A DNA stretch of 29,605 nucleotides from a virus: positions 1-29,605 of the IMG/VR virus record IMGVR_UViG_3300025131_000282, one strand, 5' to 3'. Of this stretch, positions 12,087 through 16,489 are shown one piece after another. Under the pieces are notes generated by a model. That model saw only the letters and a list, made by a program, of their open reading frames with translations. It was not told the DNA's origin and did no database searches. Made by a program: the position numbers and the translations under genes. Positions within the stretch are counted from its first letter, which is position 1. The number at the start of each line of letters is the position of its first letter.

Positions 12087-12722
12087 TTATTTAATACTTT
12101 CTGTTGGTATATTAAGAGCTTCTATAACTGCAAATTCAAATACTTTACTCTCATTATCATATCCAATCACTCCATTAAACTTATTTTTTAATTCATTCCA
12201 TCTATCTAATATATCTTGACTTACTGTTATAGTTATCTTTTTATCAAAATCTTCTCCCTTCCCATCTCCTTCAAAATCTTCCCAATTAAAATCTGATAGA
12301 GTTCTAAAGTTTTCTAGCTCTTGTTCTGTGTAAGGTAATGTTAAATCTAAATCATCAAACTCATTACTAATCTCTTTTATTCTTTCAGCTAATTCTATTG
12401 TATCTGTTTCAAATTTAGTTTCGTTGGTCTCTATAGCTATTCTAATAGCCTGTGATTGATTTATTTTACCTAAGTTATAAGTATATACCTTCTCAAATTT
12501 TAACTCTTTTAGAACACTTAATCTGTGATTTCCATTTACCACCTCATAATATCCTGTATCTAATTCTCTTATAAGAATATTTTCTATCTGTCCATTTCTT
12601 TTGATATTCTCTTTTAGTTTCTCTTGCTTTTTATCATCTTCTGTTTTGTAATTCCAATCAGCTTTAACTAATTTGTCTATTGGTACTTCTATGAATCCCA
12701 ATTTATATTTTTTCTTTTCCAT
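12087..12722 (-). CDS. ParB/sulfiredoxin-fold protein next to dpdA
   Basis: 211 residues. The N-terminal domain matches the ParB/Srx fold: GFIEVPIDKLVKADWNY at 9-25, LKENIKRNGQIENILIREL at 36-54, and the nucleotide-binding-type signature VVNGNHRLSVLKEL at 61-74. A following helical part has INQSQAIRIAIETNET and TIELAERIKEISNEFDDLDL. The C-terminal section (about 157-211) has KITITVSQDILDRWNELKNK and an EFAVIEALNI helix. ParB-like proteins next to terminases are common in phages. The start lies inside the 3-prime end of dpdA (34-base overlap), implying co-translation. One option is a role in base exchange like the bacterial DpdB; others are DNA binding or nuclease activity. Function is not settled by sequence. 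Confidence 0.75.
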   Translation of the reverse strand: MEKKKYKLGFIEVPIDKLVKADWNYKTEDDKKQEKLKENIKRNGQIENILIRELDTGYYEVVNGNHRLSVLKELKFEKVYTYNLGKINQSQAIRIAIETNETKFETDTIELAERIKEISNEFDDLDLTLPYTEQELENFRTLSDFNWEDFEGDGKGEDFDKKITITVSQDILDRWNELKNKFNGVIGYDNESKVFEFAVIEALNIPTESIK

Positions 12723-13552
12723 AATTTTGTATAATATATTTGTGCTTGTTGATAAGCGTTAATACCTTGTGATAATCTATATTCTAATTGTTCTCTTTTA
12801 TTCTCATGATGTAATAAATCTATATTAAAACTAGCTCCTATTTTGTTTTTATCTTTTGCTGTTAAGTTTGTTACTTTTCTACCAGTAAATTTTGGTACAA
12901 ACCCATACATAATACCAGCCTTCCAACTTGTGCTATCAACTGAATAGAAAGGATATTTAGACATAACACTATCTTTAGTCATTGCAAAACCATGCACTTT
13001 AATACCTCTATCATAACATTGTTTAATTAGTTTTAGATAAGGTAATCTACTCCTATTGTTTCTATCTCCTTCCAAAGCAACATATTTACTTTCGCTATCT
13101 TCTAACATATCTATATAATCTTTCCAACTCATACAGTTAGGATGATATACAGTAACACATTTTGAGTATAGTTTTTCTTTCTTTAATTCTTCTCTCCATT
13201 TATTTACCAACTCTTGCCCTACTATTTCTCCTATATCTAACTCAGCAAAGTAATCATAGTTATTATAATTCCTTTTTAACCATACTAAATACTTATCAAA
13301 ATACTCTTGTGGAGTTTCTTTCATCTTCTCTTTCTTTTTATGAACTCCTGCTGAAGATATATTTTCATCCTCACTAAAAAATGTATGAGCTCCACTATCT
13401 ACAAATACTAAATCATGATAGATTTTTGCATTTCTTATCTTTTTATCCTCTTTATCAGTTCTCATATAATAGTAAGAATAGAAAGCGTTTAAGATTTCTG
13501 GTCTATGTCTGTAGTTCCAACTTTGTTCTACTCCTGCTAAAAATATTTTCAT
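12689..13552 (-). CDS. dpdA: DpdA-type DNA guanine transglycosylase
   Basis: 287 residues. The protein resembles the TGT-like DpdA proteins of phages, which exchange guanine in DNA for a 7-deazaguanine base. Visible motifs are LVFVDSGAHTFF at 48-59 (counterpart of the TGT DSGGFQ block, with D52 as candidate catalytic acid), YFAELDIGEIVG at 101-112, VALEGDRNNRSRLPY at 158-172, IKVHGFAMTKDS at 184-195, and FYSVDSTSWKAG at 202-213. It is much shorter than tRNA-guanine transglycosylases and I see no four-ligand zinc site, as in other phage DpdA proteins I know. It sits in one overlapping run with CDG-making genes, which strongly supports the call. The subfamily cannot be assigned without a tree. 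Confidence 0.82.
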   Translation of the reverse strand: MKIFLAGVEQSWNYRHRPEILNAFYSYYYMRTDKEDKKIRNAKIYHDLVFVDSGAHTFFSEDENISSAGVHKKKEKMKETPQEYFDKYLVWLKRNYNNYDYFAELDIGEIVGQELVNKWREELKKEKLYSKCVTVYHPNCMSWKDYIDMLEDSESKYVALEGDRNNRSRLPYLKLIKQCYDRGIKVHGFAMTKDSVMSKYPFYSVDSTSWKAGIMYGFVPKFTGRKVTNLTAKDKNKIGASFNIDLLHHENKREQLEYRLSQGINAYQQAQIYYTKLWKRKNINWDS

Positions 13553-14538
13553 TCAAACCATTTTTCTATTTCAAAAGTATAATTACTTTCTGTTTGTTTT
13601 AACTCTCCTTTTAGTGCCTCTTGAACTAATTTGACACATTCATCAAAATTATTATATAAATAATCTTTAGAATAAAATTCAGGATAAACTACTCTATTTG
13701 GTAATACAGGAATACATCCTAATTTAACTGCCTCATTTACTCCTATTCCAAAATTCTCTTGCAACGCAAAACTTACTACCACTTTACTTTTTCCTAATAA
13801 TTTATAGTAATCAGTTTTAGGTAATTTTAAAGAATGAGTATTTACAAATTTAGGTTCTTTAAATGGTTTCTCTAGGTAGCATAACCAGTCATTTGTAATA
13901 GTTTCTTTTAATTTTTCAAATAACCAAGGTTGTTTTTCATCTACATTTCTACCATTAAAGACAACTATGTTTTCTTTTTCATCAGATTTGTATTGCATAA
14001 ATTCTTTGTCGTCTAATGTTTGTCCTGTAACAATTAACTTATCTTCATTTATGATTCTTTTCTTCAATACATCTTTTTTGATAAATTCAGAAAAAACAAA
14101 TACTTTATCTGCTATATCAAAAATAACATCCTCAAAATTCTTTGCCCATCTTTCCATATCTCTAACAAAATCTGTATCAGTAAAACTACCAGCATGTAAA
14201 ACACCTCTAACCTTAACATCTTTCTTACAAAAGTAATTTAGATAGGCAATACTTTCTAATCCAGGAAACCAAATATCAGAAGTAAAAATTATATCTCCAT
14301 CTTCTATTTCTCCTGTATGATACATTTCTGCAACCTTAGCAATTTGTTTACTCTTAAATTCAATTGTAGTAGGTGCATCTAAAAAACTTCCTTCCTTGAT
14401 TTGTCTTGCAGGAATATCAGGATATATTCTTACATATTCTTTTCCACTTTTATCTAGATAATCACAAATGACTTTATCCATATAAACTGTGTATCTCATT
14501 TCAATATGTTCCAGCGGTAGGTATATTATTTTTGCCAT
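13549..14538 (-). CDS. GT-B (GT4-like) glycosyltransferase inside the base-modification cassette
   Basis: 329 residues. The N-terminal half (Rossmann-like) has DIIFTSDIWFPGLESIAYL at 82-100, VRGVLHAGSFTDTDFV at 110-125 and KVFVFSEFIKKDVL at 145-158. The C-terminal half has ENIVVFNGRNVDEKQPWLF at 189-207, then the donor-site block SFALQENFGIGVNEAVKLG at 256-274. E261 and E269 form the EX7E motif of GT4-type retaining enzymes, followed by CIPVLPNRVVYPEFY. It overlaps dpdA by four bases and the T-fold gene by 13 bases. The likely acceptor is therefore a modified base in DNA or its precursor (inference). A cell-surface target is the alternative. No signal peptide or membrane segment is seen. Confidence 0.8.
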   Translation of the reverse strand: MAKIIYLPLEHIEMRYTVYMDKVICDYLDKSGKEYVRIYPDIPARQIKEGSFLDAPTTIEFKSKQIAKVAEMYHTGEIEDGDIIFTSDIWFPGLESIAYLNYFCKKDVKVRGVLHAGSFTDTDFVRDMERWAKNFEDVIFDIADKVFVFSEFIKKDVLKKRIINEDKLIVTGQTLDDKEFMQYKSDEKENIVVFNGRNVDEKQPWLFEKLKETITNDWLCYLEKPFKEPKFVNTHSLKLPKTDYYKLLGKSKVVVSFALQENFGIGVNEAVKLGCIPVLPNRVVYPEFYSKDYLYNNFDECVKLVQEALKGELKQTESNYTFEIEKWFE

Positions 14539-14852
14539 ATTTCTGCTCCATTTTCGTTATCCTCTAATACTTTACAATAATTTAATTCAAATGTTAATAG
14601 TAAATCTTTTGCGATACTTTCGCAACTTAATCCACCAAACTCTTTATCATATCTGCAATCAAGGTATTCTGTTATTTTATTCTTAAACATTATTATTTCA
14701 ATATCTCTATCATCATGCTTTACTTCTTTCTTACAAGTAATATAAAAGTTATGCCTATGAATGTTTTTTAGGTATTCAACTTCTTTTATCCTACAATCTT
14801 TCCAAAAATGAGTACCAGCATATTGTATGTTTACTATTATATTTGTTCTCAC
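14526..14852 (-). CDS. QueD-like tunnel-fold protein of the modification cassette
   Basis: 108 residues, starting at GTG whose last bases form the TGA of folE (GTGA overlap). It is distantly similar to QueD/PTPS: AGTHFW around H15, HRHNFYI with H32 and H34 (matching the HGHNY zinc ligands of QueD), SCESIAKDLL at 76-85 (matching PTAENMAKYL), and a C-terminal VLEDNENGAEI around E97. All three zinc-binding histidines therefore seem kept. The Cys that QueD carries four residues before its HxH (C24) is not in the same place; the nearest is C20, twelve residues before H32. The protein is shorter than QueD, and a separate true QueD is present. It may act on CDG or another pterin/deazaguanine intermediate. 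A CDG decarboxylase role is one hypothesis. Confidence 0.65.
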   Translation of the reverse strand: MRTNIIVNIQYAGTHFWKDCRIKEVEYLKNIHRHNFYITCKKEVKHDDRDIEIIMFKNKITEYLDCRYDKEFGGLSCESIAKDLLLTFELNYCKVLEDNENGAEIWQK

Positions 14853-15376
14853 TTTATTAGATTTAAAAATTCATTCCTCGCATTCAAATCATTCTTAAAC
14901 GCTCCAATCATTTTAGAGGTAGTAGTCCAAGTATTGTGTTTTTTAACTCCTCTCATTTCCATACATAGATGTTTTGCTTTTAATACTACAGCAACTCCTT
15001 GAGGCTCTAATTGTTTTTGTATCTCATTTGCTACTTGTGTTGTTATCCTCTCTTGATTTTGTAATCTCCTACTAAACCATTCTACAGTTCTTGCTAATTT
15101 ACTCAACCCAACTATCTTTTTGTTTGGAATATATCCTACTGTTGCATATCCAAAGAAAGGTGCGATATGATGTTCGCATAAAGAATAAAAAGGTATGTTA
15201 GTTTGTATAATCATTTCATCATATCCTTCACTATCAAATGTAGTAAAGTTAAATTCAGGAGGACTTGTAAATTCCTTTAAGAATTTCAAATACCTTTTAG
15301 GTGTATCTTTTAATCCTTCTCTACTAGCATCATTATCTATTTGCTCTATTATTTTTTTAATATTATCTTCTATCAT
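14849..15376 (-). CDS. folE: GTP cyclohydrolase I (FolE)
   Basis: 175 residues. It converts GTP to 7,8-dihydroneopterin triphosphate, the first step of 7-deazaguanine synthesis. Motifs are SREGLKDTPKRYLKFL at 18-33, FYSLCEHHIAPFFGYATVGY at 63-82 with zinc ligands C67 and H70 and catalytic-type H69, IVGLSKLARTVEWFSRRLQN at 88-107 followed by QERIT, and KAKHLCMEMRGV at 133-144 with the third zinc ligand C138. It lacks part of the N-terminal helical region of the roughly 220-residue E. coli enzyme but keeps the full catalytic core. It overlaps queE by four bases (ATGA). In this context it supplies precursor for base modification rather than folate. Confidence 0.95.
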   Translation of the reverse strand: MIEDNIKKIIEQIDNDASREGLKDTPKRYLKFLKEFTSPPEFNFTTFDSEGYDEMIIQTNIPFYSLCEHHIAPFFGYATVGYIPNKKIVGLSKLARTVEWFSRRLQNQERITTQVANEIQKQLEPQGVAVVLKAKHLCMEMRGVKKHNTWTTTSKMIGAFKNDLNARNEFLNLIK

Positions 15377-16077
15377 ACTCCTGTTGTTTTATTCCATATT
15401 TCTATTTGTAATCTACTTGAATATAAAATTTGATTATCTTTACATATATCTGATACCATTTTGCTGTTTTGTTTTAACATTATTTCATCATCAGCTCCAG
15501 GCATTAAAACTATTTTTTCTTTTTTTAATTCATATTTGTTTATTAGTTCTTGTACCTCTTCCCAATCTTGTTGTTTTGTAATAACAAATTTGAATATAGA
15601 AAATTCGTGACTATTTATTTGTTTCAGAACATCTCTTTTTATTCTTTTATTATAAGGTTCTCCAGAGTTAGATAGTTTAGGACTACAATTAATAAGAGTA
15701 ACTAAATTAAAAAAACTATCATTTAATAATTTTGTTCCGTTTGTTTCCAATTCTACAAATGGCATCATTCCGTGTTTATTATAATACTCCCTTAAAAATA
15801 CTTCTAACTCCTTTTGTTGTAATACAGGTTCTCCTCCTGTTAAAACTAGATGAACTCCTTTTTTAAATAATTCTAAATAGTTATCTTCAAACAATTTCAT
15901 AGCCTCATCATGAGTATAATTATCTCCTTTCTTCCATACCTCTATTGTATCACATATCCAATCTCCTTTACATAAAAGATTACAAGCGGTTAGCCTTAAA
16001 AATACAGAGGGTACTCCCATTGTTATTCCTTCTCCTTGAATACTGTAAAAGTGTTCGCTAATTGATAATCCTTTCAT
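15373..16077 (-). CDS. queE: 7-carboxy-7-deazaguanine synthase (QueE), radical SAM
   Basis: 234 residues from the ATG at 16077, chosen because it starts just before the conserved EHFYSIQGEG block (8-17); a GTG start 12 codons earlier is possible but lies deep in queD. QueE converts 6-carboxytetrahydropterin to CDG using an iron-sulfur cluster and SAM. Visible motifs are the cysteines in ACNLLCKGDWICDT (C32, C36, C42), TGGEPVLQ at 80-87, ELETNGT at 109-115 and SPKLS at 132-136. The third Cys is spaced C-X5-C instead of the usual C-X2-C, a small insertion in the cluster loop. Some QueE proteins are known to have expanded loops, so activity is likely retained. It overlaps queD by 20 bases. Confidence 0.92.
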   Translation of the reverse strand: MKGLSISEHFYSIQGEGITMGVPSVFLRLTACNLLCKGDWICDTIEVWKKGDNYTHDEAMKLFEDNYLELFKKGVHLVLTGGEPVLQQKELEVFLREYYNKHGMMPFVELETNGTKLLNDSFFNLVTLINCSPKLSNSGEPYNKRIKRDVLKQINSHEFSIFKFVITKQQDWEEVQELINKYELKKEKIVLMPGADDEIMLKQNSKMVSDICKDNQILYSSRLQIEIWNKTTGV

Positions 16078-16489
16078 AAGTCGCTTTACATTTTCTAGTT
16101 TCTTCAATATCACATTTTATTAATATACATCCAGTTTCTGCTAATTCATCTATCGCAACTACCTCACAAAGATACTTTGCCATATTTTCTGCGGTAGGAT
16201 TGAAACTTGTTACTATTATATCATTAGGTACTAATTCTTTTAAGCTAGATACTAAATTATCGTGTTCCCATATTAAAAATTTATGGTCCCAATTATCTTC
16301 TAACCAATCACATAATTTAGATTTAATTACACTAAAATCCATTACTCTCCCTAAATGGTCTAATTCAGATGCTAGTATAGTAAAATGAACTCTATAATTA
16401 TGACCGTGTAAGTGAGCGCATTTGTTTTCGTGTCCTGTTACTTTGTGTCCTGCACTGAAGTCATGGTATCTAGTTGCTGTTATTTTCAT
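16058..16489 (-). CDS. queD: 6-carboxy-5,6,7,8-tetrahydropterin synthase (QueD)
   Basis: 143 residues. It converts dihydroneopterin triphosphate to 6-carboxytetrahydropterin. The full set of family motifs is present: FSAGHKV with H15, CAHLHGHNYRV with catalytic C24 and zinc ligands H28 and H30, VMDFSVIKSKL around D51, LEDNWDHKFL around H69, FNPTAENMAKYL at 97-108 and CDIEETRKCKATY around E130. It is the first gene of the modification cassette, after a 48-base gap that may hold a promoter or a tiny leader frame. The ATG at 16489 directly precedes the conserved N-terminal strand. Confidence 0.95.
   Translation of the reverse strand: MKITATRYHDFSAGHKVTGHENKCAHLHGHNYRVHFTILASELDHLGRVMDFSVIKSKLCDWLEDNWDHKFLIWEHDNLVSSLKELVPNDIIVTSFNPTAENMAKYLCEVVAIDELAETGCILIKCDIEETRKCKATYERIIN

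Follow-up and report, generated by a model that had tools for sequence, protein, structure and literature searches.

A glycosyltransferase paired with a candidate CDG decarboxylase in phage 7-deazaguanine cassettes hints at sugars on DNA guanines

Which base does a phage place in its DNA when its 7-deazaguanine genes lead to CDG, no queC lies beside them, and a QueD-like protein and a glycosyltransferase (GT) are encoded in the same operon? The stretch of DNA analysed here (the window) raises this question. It is an entire linear viral contig, 29,605 bases long, in which end repeats are absent, and it is therefore possibly a fragment. The large terminase shares 53% identity with that of Flavobacterium phage 11b, which makes a flavobacterial host likely. 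As the initial annotation had described, six genes with overlapping ends run along the minus strand from 16489 to 12689 in the order queD, queE, folE, QueD-like gene, GT and dpdA, and are followed by a ParB-like gene. Families were assigned with Pfam, PHROGs and NCBIfam profiles and matched those proposed. The features are as follows:

16058..16489, minus strand: queD, 6-carboxy-tetrahydropterin synthase (PF01242, 1.8e-25; phrog_2389, 3.8e-46)
15373..16113, minus strand: queE, CDG synthase, radical SAM (phrog_2076, 9e-54; several QueE NCBIfams)
14849..15376, minus strand: folE, GTP cyclohydrolase I (PF01227, 2.9e-67; TIGR00063, 217 bits, exceeding its cut-off)
14526..14852, minus strand: dpdL candidate, a QueD-like protein of 108 aa with a QueD fold, proposed CDG decarboxylase (phrog_17812, 3.7e-22)
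13549..14538, minus strand: GT4-type glycosyltransferase (GT-B, retaining; 329 aa), assigned by fold and motifs (Glycos_transf_1, 3e-4, below cut-off)
12689..13552, minus strand: dpdA, DNA guanine transglycosylase, DpdA1-like (phrog_887, 2.9e-29; hhalign to CAjan/NP1 DpdA)
12087..12722, minus strand: ParB-like gene, overlapping dpdA (PF02195, 2.4e-6)

The deazaguanine cassette itself is confirmed. FolE, QueD and QueE, which together would convert GTP to CDG, are all present by Pfam, PHROGs and NCBIfam matches. In particular, QueD retains its catalytic C24, HLHGH, D68-H69, E101 and E130, the same residues being conserved across 75 phage QueDs, and it matches TIGR03367 at 3.6e-22 (78.6 bits, below the cut-off of 89.25). 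The QueE cluster motif reads Cx3Cx5C. The idea that this short loop represents a broken motif was rejected, as relatives differ greatly in this spacing and often have 5-7 residues there. For the start of QueE, the Met at residue 14 is likelier than the GTG at 16113, where the ORF had been opened mechanically. The window DpdA is recognised by PHROGs and not by Pfam or NCBIfam. Alignment of its subtype with the CAjan/NP1 DpdA set (hhalign) gave an E value of 8.5e-20, and 4.4e-54 with a broader set, the stretches DSGA, HGFAMT and YPFYSVDSTSW being common to the window and CAjan/NP1 proteins. The CAjan enzyme is proven: CAjan DNA carries preQ0, and deletion of dpdA removes both the DNA modification and restriction resistance (PMC6884629). 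Thus the earlier description of a CDG-making DNA-modification cassette with a DpdA-type enzyme holds.

The same annotation had the cassette stop at CDG, which is probably not correct, and listed the GT without giving it a role. The AlphaFold2 model of the QueD-like protein (pLDDT 96.5) has E. coli QueD as its best solved-structure match (Z 12.6, rmsd 2.4 A, 106 residues), bearing out the QueD fold. A PDB sequence search with this protein, DpdA and the GT returned no real match, and profiles and folds were used instead. Profile alignment against the 75 phage QueDs shows that the zinc-type histidines (H15, H32 and H34) are retained, as is E97, the equivalent of QueD E130, whilst this alignment and that of 61 viral QueD-like sequences both reveal the loss of QueD Cys24 and the Asp68-His69 dyad. 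Judged from these residues, the protein is an altered enzyme and not a second QueD. Moreover, H15, L28, H32, H34, F36, R49, E52, S76, C77, E78 and E97 are invariant in 61/61 sequences, and the combination of invariant histidines with the new R49, E52 and S76-C77-E78 implies an active enzyme rather than a decayed one. The protein belongs to the same family (phrog_17812) as its counterpart in Cellulophaga phage phiST (KC821604). This family was found in 12 named phages in addition to the window, in none of 14 control genomes, and in more than 100 CDG cassettes. A CDG decarboxylase named DpdL was reportedly described by Cui and colleagues in 2023, together with dDG and dCDG in phage DNA, and we take the phrog_17812 protein to be DpdL. 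On this assignment, the window protein most likely decarboxylates CDG to 7-deazaguanine.

These residues also bear on a reading in which CDG itself is inserted as dCDG and the QueD-like protein is no decarboxylase but has another role, such as that of a second QueD or of a carrier; any action of the GT on DNA would then consist in esterifying the carboxylate. Such a reading would fit the absence of queC from the record, the reported presence of dCDG in phage DNA, and a QueD-like protein whose chemistry is not fixed by sequence once the QueD catalytic residues are gone. However, the residues kept in all 61 sequences speak for an active enzyme and the cassette already contains a true queD, and we consider insertion of CDG distinctly improbable. 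With a dpdL candidate and a GT present beyond the CDG genes, unmodified CDG is therefore among the less likely end products, and 7-deazaguanine or a glycosylated form of it is more likely.

As had been noted before, there is no queC in the window. The QueC profile (PF06508) found nothing in the record, although as a possible fragment this does not imply absence from the phage, and the same search recovered QueC in 12 of 14 reference genomes. Neither queC nor gat-queC, which mark the QueC-type cassettes (preQ0, ADG, G+), was found in this possibly incomplete record; queC, or a pyrimidine hydroxymethylase, could lie elsewhere in the genome. QueC above the family cut-off was also found in 0/81 IMG/VR records chosen for encoding the phrog_17812 protein (two had sub-cut-off matches), and dpdL and the GT were found in 0/18 QueC-anchored cassettes, the loci compared here and below being phylogenetically non-independent and many contigs fragmentary. 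The other deazaguanine genes in these 18 loci, some of which are on cut contigs, were QueD (16), FolE (16), QueE (16) and DpdA1-type (16). Escherichia phage CAjan illustrates the QueC type: it shares folE, queD, queE and a homologous dpdA with the window, but has queC and neither dpdL nor GT, whereas the window has dpdL and GT in place of queC.

The replacement can be seen at a single locus. Near relatives, fetched by the window's QueE, share with it the gene order queD-queE-folE-X-dpdA-parB, but differ at position X. A full-length queC stands there in L094, L095, L097 and L100 (PF06508, E at about 1e-65 or lower), whereas the window and L101, L104 and L015 have dpdL together with the GT, and L014 has only dpdL. 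Since queC occupies the slot of dpdL and GT, the two are alternatives. Both kinds are also seen among the phages of a single Cellulophaga strain: phiSM carries queC and queF, and phiST carries dpdL. This arrangement is relevant to the suggestion that host QueC converts phage CDG to preQ0 or ADG in DNA. QueC does occur in most bacteria, as the control search illustrates, but near relatives that encode their own queC in this slot point to alternatives rather than to host supply, and the host enzyme would face competition from a paralogue devoted to handling CDG; a contribution of host QueC is thus very unlikely. A short QueC-like protein (~150 aa), of which the QueC profile covers part only, occupies position X in L098 (4101-4556) and L099 (4564-5010). 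Among the 12 named phages, a single possible and ambiguous exception to the mutual exclusion of dpdL and QueC is Vibrio phage D479, where a partial, distant QueC-like protein (L190:1208-2014) lies ~100 kb from dpdL and beside a nicotinamide phosphoribosyltransferase. A weak QueC signal in the dpdL-carrying Xanthomonas phage X1 turned out to be an NAD synthase.

The GT model (pLDDT 94.2) has a GT-B fold, and its best fold matches are GT4 enzymes at Z about 20-23, with BshA, MshA and GlgM at Z about 22-23. Donor motifs are of GT4 type (R197-x4-K202 and E261-x7-E269); R197 is conserved in 61/61 sequences, K202 in 60/61 and E269 in 61/61, E261 being less conserved. The fold and the R-x4-K and E-x7-E motifs together place the protein, by predicted structure and alignment, with the GT4-type retaining glycosyltransferases. 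A scan with the GT sequence alone gave a deduplicated set of 59 loci, the window included. Of these, 57 contain dpdL, and in the remaining two the GT is cut by the contig end, starting within 3 bases of it. Conversely, among 48 dpdL-anchored loci flanked by 4 kb or more in each direction, 31 contain the GT; roughly one dpdL cassette in three lacks it. The dependence is one-way, such that the GT implies dpdL but dpdL does not imply the GT, as would be expected of an enzyme that acts later than DpdL. Among the loci carrying all four genes tested, the GT falls into at least 18 lineages that share less than 50% identity. Distances of GT and DpdL correlate weakly (r = 0.23), and GT distances follow those of other genes weakly too. 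The GT is therefore often exchanged, yet stays with dpdL. Co-evolution of the two proteins was dropped as strong support, the correlation being present but weak.

The strongest competing explanation is that DpdL makes plain 7-deazaguanine, which DpdA inserts as dDG, whilst the GT serves another target (e.g. host surface glycans) and simply rides along. Cassettes with dpdL and no GT are indeed known, for example in phiST, MA9V-3 and L014, and dDG is said to occur in phage DNA. The phiST cluster resembles the window in its queD, queE, folE and phrog_17812 genes and in having no queC, but it has no GT of the window's family and no phrog_887 DpdA, a 259-aa phrog_20335 protein being found nearby instead. 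A passenger GT is, however, difficult to reconcile with its presence alongside dpdL in 57/57 assessable loci, with its division into 18 lineages below 50% identity among the loci that carry all four tested genes, and with its absence from QueC cassettes. Furthermore, a search with short exact patterns found no close GT relatives in cellular genome contigs. Plain dDG is for these reasons rather unlikely as the end product.

Could the GT instead act on a pterin from the FolE/QueD branch, or on a hydroxymethylpyrimidine? The T4 enzymes glucosylate 5-hydroxymethylcytosine made by a PF00303 enzyme. Similarity to the T4 DNA glucosyltransferases lies only in the way of working, namely the presumed attachment of a sugar to a modified base by a phage enzyme; unlike T4, the window record has no PF00303 gene and its GT is linked to deazaguanine genes. 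One GT4 enzyme with a matching fold is indeed a tetrahydrobiopterin glucosyltransferase (9v0w, Z 20.1), but it is one of many tied GT4 matches. PF00303 genes are present in some GT phages (Paride and Phosso), but none was found in the complete GT-bearing phages ACP17, BUCT-ZZ01 and X1, and 5-hydroxymethylpyrimidine is therefore an unlikely acceptor. Moreover, a dpdA-type gene is found in 54/59 GT loci, three of the four dpdA families being assigned partly by motif. An acceptor other than a deazaguanine is the least likely of the readings weighed here.

We give about an even chance to the reading that the window operon encodes a DpdL-type 7-deazaguanine DNA modification with a dedicated GT, leading from CDG to 7-deazaguanine, insertion by DpdA and glycosylation. 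DpdL, in which the zinc site and guanine-binding Glu are kept, would divert CDG from the QueC branch and decarboxylate it. DpdA would then swap guanine in phage DNA for the resulting base, and the GT4 enzyme would add a sugar from a host nucleotide-sugar, either to the inserted base or to the product of DpdL. The bulky base so formed would be expected to block restriction enzymes. Plain 7-deazaguanine has neither hydroxyl nor amine at C7, and attaching the sugar would therefore call for either an additional step or a C-glycosidic bond, which would be unusual. The options are a C-glycoside at C7, which would place a C-glycoside in DNA, an ester on CDG, or an extra hydroxyl-forming step. In GT-type marine phages a 168-aa protein with no Pfam or PHROG match lies directly upstream of dpdL (L154:6594-7097; cluster 13, 21 loci) and might provide the missing point of attachment for the sugar.

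The wider proposition is that many phages, this one included, have glycosylated 7-deazaguanine, which would represent hypermodified purines of a new class, in their DNA through a CDG-DpdL-DpdA-GT4 pathway found in alternation with the QueC branch, the sugar varying with GalE-, mannose- or heptose-type donor genes; in our estimation this falls a little short of an even chance. A GalE-type epimerase directly follows the GT in about 18 loci (TIGR01179 above cut-off in 2/3 tested), and in 14 loci it is preceded by a cupin of the mannose-6-phosphate isomerase type, sometimes as a fusion with a nucleotidyltransferase. Neither a GalE nor an isomerase gene was found in the window cassette. Acidovorax phage ACP17 and X1, both with complete genomes, resemble the window in encoding folE, queE, dpdL and a GT of its family, and in having no QueC above the cut-off; a queD is annotated in ACP17 as well. 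They differ in a DpdA-type protein of another family (phrog_10773) and in a GT only 26-28% identical to that of the window. ACP17, X1 and Paride are cultured and carry the same dpdL-GT gene pair, making the question directly testable.

The pairing of dpdL with the GT is the surprising part of the cassette, and hints that DNA guanines may carry sugars. We found no report of a glycosylated deazaguanine in the literature searched, which is not proof of absence, and to our knowledge the glycosylated bases hitherto described in phages are pyrimidines. If the proposal is correct, sugar-bearing purines would be added to the known DNA modifications, and their bulk would matter for restriction, for CRISPR and for the sequencing of marine and jumbo phages. 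It would also offer a simple genomic rule, whereby QueC indicates preQ0-type bases, dpdL a different branch, and the GT a further step.

Several further genes recur around these cassettes. One family of 510 aa recurs in dpdL cassettes (L148:2735-4264; 59 loci in its cluster); it contains a GDSGGFQ motif and has no Pfam, PHROG or NCBIfam match. Given its alignment with the 'queuine tRNA-ribosyltransferase' family of X1 (hhalign 97.8%), it is probably a DpdA type that has escaped annotation, and it was counted above as one of the three dpdA families assigned partly by motif. Where phages have no recognised DpdA, the phrog_20335 protein (about 260 aa) is found near dpdL (L001:6815-7606, L003:6726-7505) and is a candidate transglycosylase. 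The ParB-like gene is a recurrent neighbour of dpdA (17 loci in the cluster analysis), adjoining it in phages unrelated to one another, namely the window lineage (12087-12722), Cracklewink and phiSM (L170:202-861 and L192:6357-6821). It may be a partner of the system or a packaging gene, its membership in the system being uncertain. Lastly, in the window's near relatives FolE is extended at its N-terminus by a domain of ~110 aa (L094:2980-3843, L101:8705-9574, L014:2441-3277), which is absent from the window FolE. This domain is phosphoribosyltransferase-like, with a PRPP motif (VDDLIDSGRT) in L014; in L094 and L101 it matches PF00156 weakly. The BUCT-ZZ01 cassette contains a separate xanthine-guanine phosphoribosyltransferase gene. 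A possible function of both is the salvage of guanine released by DpdA.
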